NCBI GenBank assembly: GCA_022821275.1 | Contig: JAJEDY010000024.1 | Span: 29,432 to 93,431 of the forward strand | DNA from: Candidatus Latescibacterota bacterium | Lineage (GTDB): Bacteria; Latescibacterota; UBA2968 | Reading direction: 5' to 3' | DNA length: 64,000 nucleotides | Part shown: piece by piece, positions 25,048-28,134 of the stretch | Position numbering within the stretch: the stretch's first letter is position 1 | How the letters are laid out: every line of letters starts with the position of its first letter | Translations under genes and position numbers: made by a program | The notes under the pieces: model-generated | The model's database searches: none | What the model was told of the DNA's origin: nothing | The model's input: only the letters and a program-made list of their open reading frames with translations

Positions 25048-28000
25048 ATGAGTCTTTCAGTGAAAGCGCCGTGGCATAAAAGTTCGTGGGATGCGTTTGT
25101 GCAAAAGGGGTTGCCCGAATTGTTGGCGGATCGGGTATCGCTGGCGGGGTATCGGGTGGTGTCGGTGGATGAATATACCTGTGAATTGCATCTCGCGATT
25201 CAGGGGGGGCAAGAGGTTGTGTACAAAAATATCCCTCAGCCCGACGAGTGGGGGCGGTTTAAGGTAGATGGCTTTTTTCTAACGGTGGTTCCCGCGCCGA
25301 CTGATGTGGATTTGGCGCGTGCTAAAATTCGGTGTGTAGGCGAGCAAGTGCGCGATTATATTGCCGAGCGGTTGGAAAATATGCCAGAGATGTTGGAAGA
25401 AGCAGTTGAAACCTGGATGCCGTTGGGAGATTGGATCCACACATTTTTTATGGAAGAACCCACATCGCATTGTTTGCAGGCGACCAATCTGCAGGATATG
25501 TACGTTCATTTGCGGCGGGTGACGTTGATCCCAATTATCGGTGAGGCCGATGAGGGGGTAGAGAATTACTATCATCCGTCGCACGATGGGCGGGTTTGTC
25601 CTTATTGCACACCCGAGGGACCGAATCTCGCGCGAATTTTAGAGGTGGCTCAAGGGGCGACGATTCGCGATGGCAAGCTGGTGATTGAAGACGATGCCCC
25701 TGAAAAGCGGCTGGGTATAGGTGCTTCGGTGGTTCCGTTTTTGGAACACAATGATACCAATCGCGTTTTGATGGGTGTGAATATGATGCGGCAGTGGATT
25801 GGCGCGCCAGGTCCCGATATGCAGCGCGATGAACAGGGCGTGTGGCACGCGTACCACGCGCAATATGATGGCAAAACACTGGAGTCGGAACCCGCGCTGG
25901 TGCAGACGGGATGTGAACCGAGCGATTCGCATTTTTGGACGGGTTACAATTTGCTGACAGCGTTTATGGCGTGGAATGGAGATACACACGAAGACGCAGT
26001 TGTGATCAGCGAATCGGCTGCGAACCGGATGATGCTGCCCAATCGCGTTGCGCCGGGCGATAAACTGAGCAATCGACACGGTTTTAAGGGGGTCGTGTCG
26101 CGCATTGTGCGAGATGAAGATATGCCCAGATTGTCGGATGGCACGCCTGTGGAACTTATTGTGAGTGTGTGTGGTTTGCCATCGCGGTTGAATATTGGAC
26201 AGGTGCGCGAAGCTGTGGTCGGGCGCATTGCAAAGGCCGAGGGAGAGCCGGTTATTGTTCCCGCGCTCAATGCGCCCAAAGACGGTGAGATACGCGCTCG
26301 GTTGAAGGCTTCAGGGCTGTCAGAAGATGGTATGGATGCGCTGACGGTGAATGGGGAGACGCTACCGCGCCGCACCACAGTGGGGTGGGTGTATTGGGGG
26401 CGCACGTTGCATCTGGCTGCAGATAAAATTCATATGGGTGTAAAGCCGGGGCAACGCGATCAAGGGGTGGGGGAGACAGAGTTTTTGGCGTTGCGAGAAG
26501 CGGGTGCTTTTGGGGTGATTGGCGATTTGTTCAATACGTGCGCGGTGGATCGAGATGATGCCGATACGCTGGCTGACCGCGTCGTTGCGGGGCCTGTTGC
26601 GCCCGCTACGCCGTCCCCTCAGTTTGATGATCTGATTGGACATTTGTCAAAAGGTGGGGTGGCTGTAGCGCTGGCTGAACGCGATGCCGATTTTTCGCTG
26701 AAGCGCGATGGGGATGTCGCGCTTGCGCGTTCGGTTCCACATCCGTGGCTGCCGGGGCATGCGTTGACCCATGTGAGTGGGGGAGATGTGCCCCGCGCAT
26801 TGCGAGAGGCCAATGACCGATTGGCGGAGATGATTGCCAATGGCGCGCCAGATGTGCTGGTGCATCGTGCGGTTGAAACGCTGTCTGAGCGGGTTCGCGC
26901 ATTTTGCGAGTTGCCGCGTTTGCAATTTCAGGCGCGCGCGTTGTTCAGCGGGCGTTCGGTGGCTGTGCCTGCACCCGAATTGCGATACGATCAGGTCGGT
27001 GTGCCCGAAGAAATGGCGTGGACGTTGTTTGGGCCGTTTGCAGCGCGAGAGGTGGGGGCTGAAGAAGTGGATAGGCGGTCGAGAAAAGCTGAGAAAGCTC
27101 TGGATGCAGCAATGGCTAAGTTGTGGGTTGTGGTGCTTCGCAGCCCCGCGTTTTCGCCAACGGCTTTTGTGGCGTGTCGTCCGGTGCGCGTAGCGGGTGA
27201 TGCGGTGCGCGTGAGTGTGGCGATTTGCAAGATGATGAATATGGATTTTGATGGTGATCAGGTGGCGATTTTTGTGCCAGTGACGGAAGAAGGCCAGTGG
27301 TCGGCCGAAGAACATCTGTCGGCGGTGGCGCATCTGACGCGGGACCCGGGGTTGATTGCACGCGAGAAGGTACATCCGATGCACGACGCGCTGTTTGGTC
27401 TGGCGTATATGAGTATGACGGACGAGGGGTTGCAGGAGATTGCGGAGATTGTTGGCGATGAGGTTGAGCGAAAGGGGTTGTTTGTCGATAAGTATCAGGT
27501 GATGGGCTGGATGGCGGATGTGATGGCGCGCGATGGTGCGAAGGCGGCATTGGATCTGTCTGCGCGATTGTGGGATAGAGGGTTTGATGCCGCGCGCAAG
27601 ACAGGGGCGTCGATGAGTGCGTTTATCGGTTCGTCGCTCGATTGGCCCGATCCGCCAGAGGGCGATGATCCAGATGTCTGGCGCGATTATCCCGATGAGG
27701 TGTCGGCTGTGTTGGCTCAATTTCGCGGATATGACGACGATGATCTCGGGATTCCCGCGCTCCTGGTGGAATGTGGTGCGCGTGCCAATTGGCAACAAGT
27801 CAGACTTTATGTGGCTCCCCAGGGCGTGACTCAGAACGCCTGGGGTGGGGTCACACCCTTGAAGCGCGGTTTTCGAGAGGGGCTGACGCCAGAGGAGTTG
27901 TTTGCACGGGCGATTGGCGCGCGCTGGGGGTTGGCCAATACGCTTGCGGAGATGATGGCGATTCAGAGCGATCTGGAAACGCAGAGTGCGCCCGGTGGGT

Positions 28001-28134
28001 ATGGCGTTTTTGCGCGGGCGCGCAGGTCGGATACGCCGGGTGTGGTATTTGCCCGCGCAGCGCAAAAGGGCGAGCGCGATCCGCTGACGGATGAGTATAG
28101 TCGGTTATTTGTGGGGTTACCGATGGAAGTGTAA
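25048..28134 (+). CDS. Single-chain, minimised beta/beta-prime RNA polymerase-like protein
   Basis: A 1028-residue fusion of shortened beta and beta-prime subunits. Beta-like order: RVCPYCTPEGPN (182-193), AWNGDTHEDAVVIS (Glu315, Asp316), PGDKLSNRHGFKG (Lys339, Lys347, aligning with E. coli beta Lys1065 and Lys1073), CGLPSRLNIGQV (375-386) and the beta C-terminal GVGETEFLALREAGA. Beta-prime-like order: clamp-helix remnant EANDRLAEMIANGAPDVLV (587-605), FSGRSVAVPAPELRYDQVGV (633-652), catalytic NMDFDGDQ with Asp733, Asp735 and Asp737, F-loop ECGARANWQQVR (908-919), FREGLTPEELF (942-952) and bridge helix IGARWGLANTLAEMM (956-970). Missing compared with E. coli: most of the beta lobes, the beta flap, the beta-prime zinc ribbon, the trigger loop and the C-terminal jaw. 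ATG 25048 has AGGAGG 6 nt upstream. The frame is intact and all catalytic residues are kept. Probably transcribes DNA with the adjacent sigma; untested. Confidence 0.88.
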   Translation: MSLSVKAPWHKSSWDAFVQKGLPELLADRVSLAGYRVVSVDEYTCELHLAIQGGQEVVYKNIPQPDEWGRFKVDGFFLTVVPAPTDVDLARAKIRCVGEQVRDYIAERLENMPEMLEEAVETWMPLGDWIHTFFMEEPTSHCLQATNLQDMYVHLRRVTLIPIIGEADEGVENYYHPSHDGRVCPYCTPEGPNLARILEVAQGATIRDGKLVIEDDAPEKRLGIGASVVPFLEHNDTNRVLMGVNMMRQWIGAPGPDMQRDEQGVWHAYHAQYDGKTLESEPALVQTGCEPSDSHFWTGYNLLTAFMAWNGDTHEDAVVISESAANRMMLPNRVAPGDKLSNRHGFKGVVSRIVRDEDMPRLSDGTPVELIVSVCGLPSRLNIGQVREAVVGRIAKAEGEPVIVPALNAPKDGEIRARLKASGLSEDGMDALTVNGETLPRRTTVGWVYWGRTLHLAADKIHMGVKPGQRDQGVGETEFLALREAGAFGVIGDLFNTCAVDRDDADTLADRVVAGPVAPATPSPQFDDLIGHLSKGGVAVALAERDADFSLKRDGDVALARSVPHPWLPGHALTHVSGGDVPRALREANDRLAEMIANGAPDVLVHRAVETLSERVRAFCELPRLQFQARALFSGRSVAVPAPELRYDQVGVPEEMAWTLFGPFAAREVGAEEVDRRSRKAEKALDAAMAKLWVVVLRSPAFSPTAFVACRPVRVAGDAVRVSVAICKMMNMDFDGDQVAIFVPVTEEGQWSAEEHLSAVAHLTRDPGLIAREKVHPMHDALFGLAYMSMTDEGLQEIAEIVGDEVERKGLFVDKYQVMGWMADVMARDGAKAALDLSARLWDRGFDAARKTGASMSAFIGSSLDWPDPPEGDDPDVWRDYPDEVSAVLAQFRGYDDDDLGIPALLVECGARANWQQVRLYVAPQGVTQNAWGGVTPLKRGFREGLTPEELFARAIGARWGLANTLAEMMAIQSDLETQSAPGGYGVFARARRSDTPGVVFARAAQKGERDPLTDEYSRLFVGLPMEV

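Follow-up and report, generated by a model that had tools for sequence, protein, structure and literature searches.

Among described enzymes, the nearest to the protein reported here are the single-chain two-barrel RNA polymerases of phages and YonO-like proteins. Single-subunit two-barrel polymerases have been described in phages and in linear cytoplasmic plasmids, with repeated fusions (PMC7281927), and further phage enzymes are described in PMC7481178 and PMC7824862. In these enzymes, be they from phages, YonO-like, plasmid-borne or involved in RNA interference, little beyond the active site aligns with the cellular polymerases. Here we describe, in a stretch of 64,000 nucleotides from a Candidatus Latescibacterota genome (contig JAJEDY010000024.1, positions 29,432 to 93,431 of the forward strand; hereafter the window, whose own coordinates are used throughout), a gene at 25048-28134 (+) that encodes a single-chain mini RNA polymerase of 1028 aa, with a beta-like half followed by a beta'-like half. 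In the family to which it belongs the cellular core is recognisable in about 1000 residues, and the gene is paired with a sigma factor gene and a conserved promoter-like motif. Both genes are intact, the catalytic residues are kept, the trigger loop and the flap are missing, the pairing is constant, the motif is conserved and the polymerase is under purifying selection. We consider it likely that the two genes form an operon, in which an extracytoplasmic function (ECF) sigma factor directs a predicted active polymerase devoid of a trigger loop to the sequence TGAACC-N13-CGGTGTC.

The polymerase frame is uninterrupted from 25009 to 28134 (+), and its longest reading, from the ATG at 25009, gives 1041 aa. 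The ATG at 25048, which yields 1028 aa, is preferred because a Shine-Dalgarno sequence AGGAGG precedes it at 25036-25041 (+) and because, across 53 sequences, conservation of its methionine (M14) reaches at least 90%. Three Pfam families match above their cut-offs, namely Rpb2_6, Rpb1_2 and, marginally, Rpb2_3 (22.2 bits against 21). The NCBIfam rpoB and rpoC models give E-values of 1.5e-49 and 1.7e-30, at bit scores far under their cut-offs (168.6 against 801.15 and 105.6 against 963.5, respectively), and a sequence search of the PDB returns beta at 3.5e-43 and beta' at 2e-24. The original prediction, made from the letters alone, of one intact frame uniting the cores of RpoB and then RpoC is thus borne out by the frame and by the Pfam, NCBIfam and PDB matches, including the two Pfam families, Rpb2_6 and Rpb1_2, against which it had proposed a profile search. 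So is its estimate of less than 40% of the size of the E. coli subunits: the length is 37% of beta plus beta' (1028 against 1342 + 1407 residues). AlphaFold gives a single confident fold (pLDDT 91, pTM 0.89), with structural matches to both beta and beta'. With Rpb2_6 and Rpb1_2, the equivalents of D460/462/464 and of K1065/K1073, and these fold matches, the protein is a member of the two-barrel (double-psi) RNA polymerase superfamily; it is not a canonical bacterial RpoB/RpoC, which has the full domain set with flap, zinc ribbon, trigger loop and jaw. Canonical rpoB (a 1269-codon frame) and rpoC (1368), whose presence elsewhere had been proposed for confirmation, are both found on a different contig of the same genome (5.66 Mb, 101 contigs, 97.5% complete).

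We aligned the protein with the E. coli and own-genome RpoB and RpoC, using the domain names that belong to the E. coli residue ranges, and counted the conservation of single positions over 84 family rows. On the beta side, the TPEGPN and NMxRQ segments, E813/D814, the barrel with K1065 and K1073, R1106 and the anchor segment are kept, and most of the lobes and protrusion and the flap are lost. On the beta' side, the clamp helices, SGR, the DFDGD loop, the GAR segment before the bridge helix, the bridge helix and the C-terminal segment are kept; the zinc ribbon, the zipper, the lid, most of the rudder, the trigger loop and the jaw are lost, the last two being the region missing between the bridge helix and the C-terminal segment. 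No residues align to beta' C70-C88 or M932/R933/H936, and a gap runs across the flap region. The codons for E315 and D316 (E. coli beta E813 and D814), within HEDAVVIS, lie at 25990-25995 (+), and these residues are kept in 82 and 83 of the 84 rows. The barrel motif KLSNRHGFK of beta, with the two active-site lysines, is encoded at 26062-26088 (+); the K1065 position is K in 76 rows and R in 8, K1073 is K in 83, and the equivalent of R1106 is kept in all 84. By alignment and model, the clamp helices (model helices 596-610 and 615-632; E. coli beta' about 270-307) correspond to 26794-26904 (+). The catalytic DFDGD (D733, D735, D737) is encoded at 27244-27258 (+); these are the aspartates that the original prediction had singled out, and homologues retain them (83, 83 and 84 of the 84 rows). 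Of 234 database proteins taken from two protein searches, 227 are of 950-1130 aa, and among the latter D[FYN]DGD is present in 222. The bridge helix, a predicted helix of 32 residues (961-992), is at 27889-27984 (+) and is followed, with no trigger loop between, by the C-terminal segment (28015-28119, +), which aligns to the terminal part of E. coli beta' (..LTEAAVAGKRDEL..ENVIVG) and has many invariant or nearly invariant positions in 53 sequences.

A trigger-loop motif was found in none of the 227 relatives. The same motif is present in the E. coli beta' chain, that of the source genome, five other full-length beta' chains and two fused chains, and is not in chains that end before that region. 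The statement of the original prediction that the protein keeps every catalytic residue that it could place stands for the Asp triad and both active-site lysines, but needs correction as to the trigger loop, which is absent. The polymerase is under purifying selection, with a ratio of nonsynonymous to synonymous substitution rates (dN/dS) of 0.15-0.20 in 13 pairs. As the parts of beta that bind the hybrid and the anchor segment are kept, the protein might be a catalytic core only, acting in a hybrid enzyme with the alpha, omega or other subunits of the cell. We hold this unlikely: no alpha or omega gene belongs to the operon in the window, extensive outer portions of both beta and beta' are absent, and the YonO and phage P23-45 polymerases are reported to be active as purified single proteins (PMC5467207, PMC10770324).

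Upstream of the polymerase, at 24443-25030 (+), lies a gene for an ECF-type sigma factor of 195 aa, with sigma70 regions 2 and 4 (Pfam Sigma70_r2 3e-18, Sigma70_r4_2 7e-15) and no region 3 match listed in Pfam, as expected of an ECF sigma; its NCBIfam sigma70-ECF match is at 120.4 bits (cut-off 42.9). Its start is inferred to be the TTG at 24443, behind a Shine-Dalgarno AGGAGG at 24430-24435 (+), because the listed GTG at 24416 falls within the -10 element. The association is constant: all 36 genomes examined (19 from the home phylum and 17 from Armatimonadota, duplicate loci merged) have an ECF-type sigma gene upstream of the polymerase and in the same orientation, adjoining it in 31 and separated by one insert in 5. 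In 21 of the 29 loci readable by our script (six further loci were not), the polymerase start lies within -14 to +5 bases of the end of the sigma stop, mostly after a GGAGG-like site. Conversely, a sigma of this kind was matched (E up to 1e-43) in 24 home-phylum genomes, and in 23 of them it is followed on its contig by the polymerase or the beginning of it, the single exception being a broken sigma on a short contig (G043). The 35 linked sigmas split in a tree from 15 other ECF sigmas on a branch with 100/99 support. These 15 come from 30 loci, drawn from 73 ECF matches in three carrier genomes; the others excluded were 12 without a match to the sigma profile, two that duplicated linked sigmas, and the poor row L083. 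Pairwise identities of sigma and polymerase are correlated (r 0.86; 21 dereplicated loci, 210 pairs), as expected for a co-inherited unit. The sigma is thus like the ECF sigmas with autoregulated promoters in having regions 2 and 4 only and, as shown below, an AAC-type -35 and a GTC-type -10, and differs from them in forming its own group among those compared and in being tied to a private core enzyme gene.

The five inserts between sigma and polymerase (G029, G030, G031, G033, G037) measure 1.3-2.1 kb and hold an ABC-transporter gene in two cases and another gene in one. The ABC transporter at L008 8180-9973 and a 396-aa protein at L011 8722-9912, tetratricopeptide-like by eye, occupy the same insertion place in close relatives, and the site between the two genes is a recurrent insertion point.

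In the window, a -35-like element TGAACC (24395-24400, +) and, after 13 bases, a -10-like element CGGTGTC (24414-24420, +), which together make up the predicted operon promoter, are followed by the AGGAGG and the TTG start of the sigma gene; both are recognised from the sequence and from the motif in relatives, and we take such AAC-type -35 and GTC-type -10 elements to be ECF-like. Each of the 35 genomes inspected has the form TGAAC-N16-GTGTC (N15 in two) ahead of its sigma gene, exact in 23 and with one change in 12; single-base shuffles reach it exactly in 0.1% of cases and with one change or fewer in 2.1%. Among 21 dereplicated sites with the 16-base spacer, GAAC is kept in all 21 and the final C in 18. 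All seven home-genus genomes searched have a single copy of the exact 13-base form of the window, and it always stands before the sigma gene. This constant linkage to a promoter-type sigma and to a promoter motif also bears on the idea that the enzyme uses a different template or serves a different purpose in making RNA, for instance in RNA-templated or primer synthesis. QDE-1, which has the same two-barrel fold, does carry out RNA-templated synthesis (PMC10770324, PMC7281927), but given the linkage we regard such a role as highly improbable here.

On the most economical account of these sequences, the mini polymerase would be brought to the operon promoter by the sigma, and the pair would sustain its own expression. 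The sigma would dock on the retained clamp helices, which we take to be the expected docking site of sigma region 2, and would melt the -10-like element, so that RNA synthesis by the mini polymerase could start. Translation of the two genes may be coupled, as the proximity of start and stop in 21 of 29 loci suggests. The pair would drive its own promoter and, once on, could be self-sustaining beside the normal polymerase. The anatomy would be that of a self-contained system, comprising a promoter motif, a sigma, a one-chain polymerase and, at the majority of the home-genus loci inspected, a terminator-like hairpin. By analogy with YonO, the missing trigger loop might entail lower accuracy and no cleavage of the enzyme's own errors (PMC5467207).

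Several observations weigh against this account. Conservation is lower at the equivalents of beta' R425 and N458 (62 and 54 of 84 rows), and at the clamp-helix positions that make contact in E. coli R275 is replaced by A in 68 of the 84 rows, E295 by A in 65 and A302 by R in 58; such changed contacts fit a re-specified interface and lost binding equally. The beta flap holds sigma region 4 in a normal holoenzyme, and its absence would leave the placement of region 4 unexplained. In the sigma tree, the label linked or unlinked changes 4 times (3 of them forced), in a tree whose bootstrap had not converged; the 4 changes arise because two linked sigmas recurred as unlabelled duplicates and L083 lies at the root. 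The correlated distances of sigma and polymerase can be explained by shared descent alone, and the sigma could also serve the normal polymerase. Finally, in nine Armatimonadota genomes the motif with at most one mismatch gives 84 matches against 26 for the backward control, so that a regulon may exist in that phylum. Taken further, the absent flap and the altered clamp contacts would suit a sigma that serves the normal polymerase, the mini protein being a paralogue that is regulatory or has no catalytic activity, such as a sponge for the sigma (an effective anti-sigma); autoregulated promoters are common among ECF sigmas. We nevertheless judge this very unlikely, since a sponge would have no need of the Asp triad and both lysines: the triad is conserved (83, 83 and 84 of 84 rows), as is D[FYN]DGD (222 of 227 relatives), and dN/dS is about 0.15-0.2.

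We also looked for further targets of the predicted sigma-polymerase pair. The exact form TGAAC-N15-GGTGTC was searched in 22 genomes and shows no excess in carriers, as the 12 carriers have 22 matches against 29 for the backward control and the 10 non-carriers (genomes in which neither polymerase nor linked sigma was detected) have 39. With at most one mismatch, TGAACC-N13-CGGTGTC has 99 matches in 15 carriers against 89 in the backward control, G024 (12 against 2) and G061 (9 against 2) standing out. We inspected 34 of the 84 non-self matches, and 3 lie outside open reading frames (ORFs) of at least 80 aa: two candidate second targets in G024, L182 (C208) before a 408-aa lipoprotein-like ORF and L191 (C42) before a 694-aa ORF, and an intergenic near-match in G000 with no nearby gene (L185). 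Near-sites that recur in genus-mates (G000 C56, C61, C91, C95) lie within ORFs, and a perfect extra site in G053 stands before a decayed sigma remnant. For the Armatimonadota, 20 of the 75 non-self matches were inspected. All 15 in G126 overlap ORFs of at least 184 aa, which is weak evidence in GC-rich DNA, and the perfect non-self sites in G126, G132 and G076 lie within ORFs. A site much like that of the operon itself, within only a 103-aa antisense ORF, is a further candidate second target (L236, G117:C384). No intergenic second target common to relatives was found among the motif matches inspected. A regulon beyond the operon is not claimed, though one may exist; the operon itself is the only conserved target that can be named.

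Concerning the origin of the family, a tree of 62 rows, which has no archaeal outgroup, unites all 52 mini polymerases in a single clade (100/100, stem 0.99) that is separate from the E. coli and Latescibacterota RpoBC and from other fused chains. Natural rpoBC fusions are full length. The mini enzyme resembles canonical RpoB/RpoC in both double-psi barrels, the active-site residues, the bridge helix and the clamp helices, and is readily alignable with them; it differs in being one chain of 1028 aa without lobes, flap, zinc ribbon, zipper, lid, trigger loop and jaw. Bacterial profiles outscore archaeal ones (rpoB 168.6 against 128.7 and 110.9 bits; rpoC 105.6 against 39.9 and 36.4), in agreement with the suggestion of the original prediction that the protein is a minimised descendant of a bacterial enzyme; the separate clade on a long stem does not favour that suggestion. 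The protein may be either a shrunken descendant or an old side branch. The companion claim of the original prediction, that the protein is closer to RpoB/RpoC than YonO is, stands: in hhalign, the family profile and one YonO sequence are matched at a probability of 0.3 percent over 22 columns around DxDGD, so that with this one sequence no relationship appears beyond DxDxD, the likeness being that of a single chain without trigger loop homology. YonO, of the Bacillus phage SPbeta, is a single chain of about 100 kDa with two barrels and no trigger loop homology; it is described as having few residues in common with multisubunit RNA polymerases (msRNAPs), whereas the mini polymerase is RpoB/RpoC-like and sigma-linked, and the need of YonO for other factors is left open in the same account (PMC5467207). 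The crAss-like phage phi14:2 gp66 and phage P23-45 gp64/gp96 are likewise single-chain two-barrel RNA polymerases, assigned to a second, highly diverged clade (PMC10770324); unlike them, the mini polymerase family would sit in the first clade. A full-text literature search (titles and abstracts), thin on subscription journals, found no description of a sigma-linked chromosomal family of this kind, in line with the earlier remark that none was known.

Other fused polymerase chains occur in the genomes compared. On contig C268 of G053, L060 416-6355 (-) encodes a chain of 1979 aa that, by Pfam, comprises alpha (RNA_pol_A_bac, RNA_pol_L), beta and beta' with a trigger loop; it is a different polymerase, with a related fused chain, L135, in G057. 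On contig C540 of G005, L061 2-4426 (+) is a fused beta-beta' frame of at least 1474 aa whose 5' end is off the contig and whose remaining beta', with the trigger-loop region, is in another frame; the tree separates it from L060 and L135.

The relatives range from 969 to 1116 aa (median 1031) and belong to Latescibacterota, Armatimonadota and other phyla; if they are named at all in a source, the name is 'hypothetical protein'. The first protein search gave at least 120 relatives, mostly near full length, with records from Gemmatimonadota, Poribacteria, Armatimonadetes and Hydrogenedentes (its 2936 matches at E < 0.001 possibly include canonical subunits and are not counted as family). A second search, with a distant member as the query, added Armatimonadota, Chthonomonadaceae and Ktedonobacteraceae, and the five closest loci of a contig scan are labelled Latescibacterota or Latescibacteria. 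Within the home phylum, the polymerase or a contig-cut piece of it is present in at least 24 of 64 genomes; in Armatimonadota it is present in 17 of 201, two of the 17 having been chosen for it. A contig-end fragment, G060:C431:6-404, covers positions 637-771 of the family profile at 153 bits and is possibly another mini polymerase, outside the count of 24. This wide distribution under no other name suggests an overlooked family. The picture of the original prediction therefore holds as to a single-chain beta/beta' protein, but not as to a one-off: it is a wide family, with a sigma gene and a promoter motif that had gone unreported.

So patchy a distribution (at least 24 of 64, and 17 of 201 with two chosen), over several phyla and in neighbourhoods that differ between lineages, recalls a polymerase of a phage or mobile element that settled in chromosomes, much as in the YonO story, and single-chain relatives in mobile elements have been described (PMC7824862). 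Decayed remnants in G053 and G043 point the same way: L181 2124-2280 (G053 contig C139) is a decayed copy of the module with a perfect promoter motif and about 30 codons of the sigma gene, and L216 4796-5167 (G043 contig C605) is another, with a broken sigma and no polymerase on the contig. Against such an origin, searches of viral, phage and plasmid collections revealed no family member: the viral contigs gave 25 pattern stretches, 0 confirmed, and 50,697 phage and 72,556 plasmid records gave 32 and 66 partial matches, respectively, with coverage always under 80%. Such an absence is no proof. In addition, no integrase, transposase or structural gene is among the nine window proteins scanned (sigma and polymerase included), which speaks for the window neighbours only. 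On balance we find it quite unlikely, and retain the chromosomal sigma-polymerase operon as the preferred interpretation.

The operon lies between two terminator-like hairpins. The first, with an 11-bp stem and a T run (24274-24301, +), stands between the upstream gene and the operon and folds at -17.9 kcal/mol (z -4.65); the second, with a 14-bp stem and a T run (28207-28239, +), follows the polymerase gene and folds at -21.7 kcal/mol (z -5.8). A terminator scan of the window gave 6 sites against 5.5 in shuffles, and therefore only the strong folds of these two sites support terminators. The downstream hairpin, present in most of the home-genus loci inspected, is not a family feature, because a simple scan found it in only 6 of 27 loci.

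Upstream of the first hairpin, a gene for a DksA-type zinc-finger protein (22266-23300) overlaps a gene for a 320-aa protein of no known family (23284-24246). Both occur upstream in the home-genus loci (not in G038) and in G024, and the 320-aa gene also in G026. We rejected the two as operon partners, as the hairpin separates the 320-aa gene from the sigma; the latter gene, moreover, is found in 34 of 64 genomes of the phylum, including some with no polymerase, and elsewhere lies far from the polymerase, which is evidence against a partnership. Downstream, at 28331-31116, are genes for a BlaI-type repressor and a BlaR1-type M56 peptidase with four TonB C-terminal stretches, whose number and order seem variable among relatives; they were likewise rejected as part of the module, being found in home-genus loci only (not in G038). 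Further upstream, a BglII-like restriction enzyme comes after an N6/N4 DNA methylase (20529-22077), the two forming a type II restriction-modification pair, which is not at the matching place in the relatives compared.

If the proposed reading is true, the family would provide a natural minimal sigma-dependent polymerase and a direct test of whether a cellular-type active site can dispense with the trigger loop; being compact, single-chained and equipped with a promoter of its own, the enzyme would also be useful for orthogonal expression. It would also mean that bacteria are able to run a second chromosomal polymerase. It is also conceivable, though somewhat less likely than not, that several bacterial phyla possess a second, orthogonal transcription machine beside the normal polymerase, with a private sigma and essentially one promoter, its own, which would make it a self-transcribing or selfish unit and the simplest sigma-dependent polymerase known.

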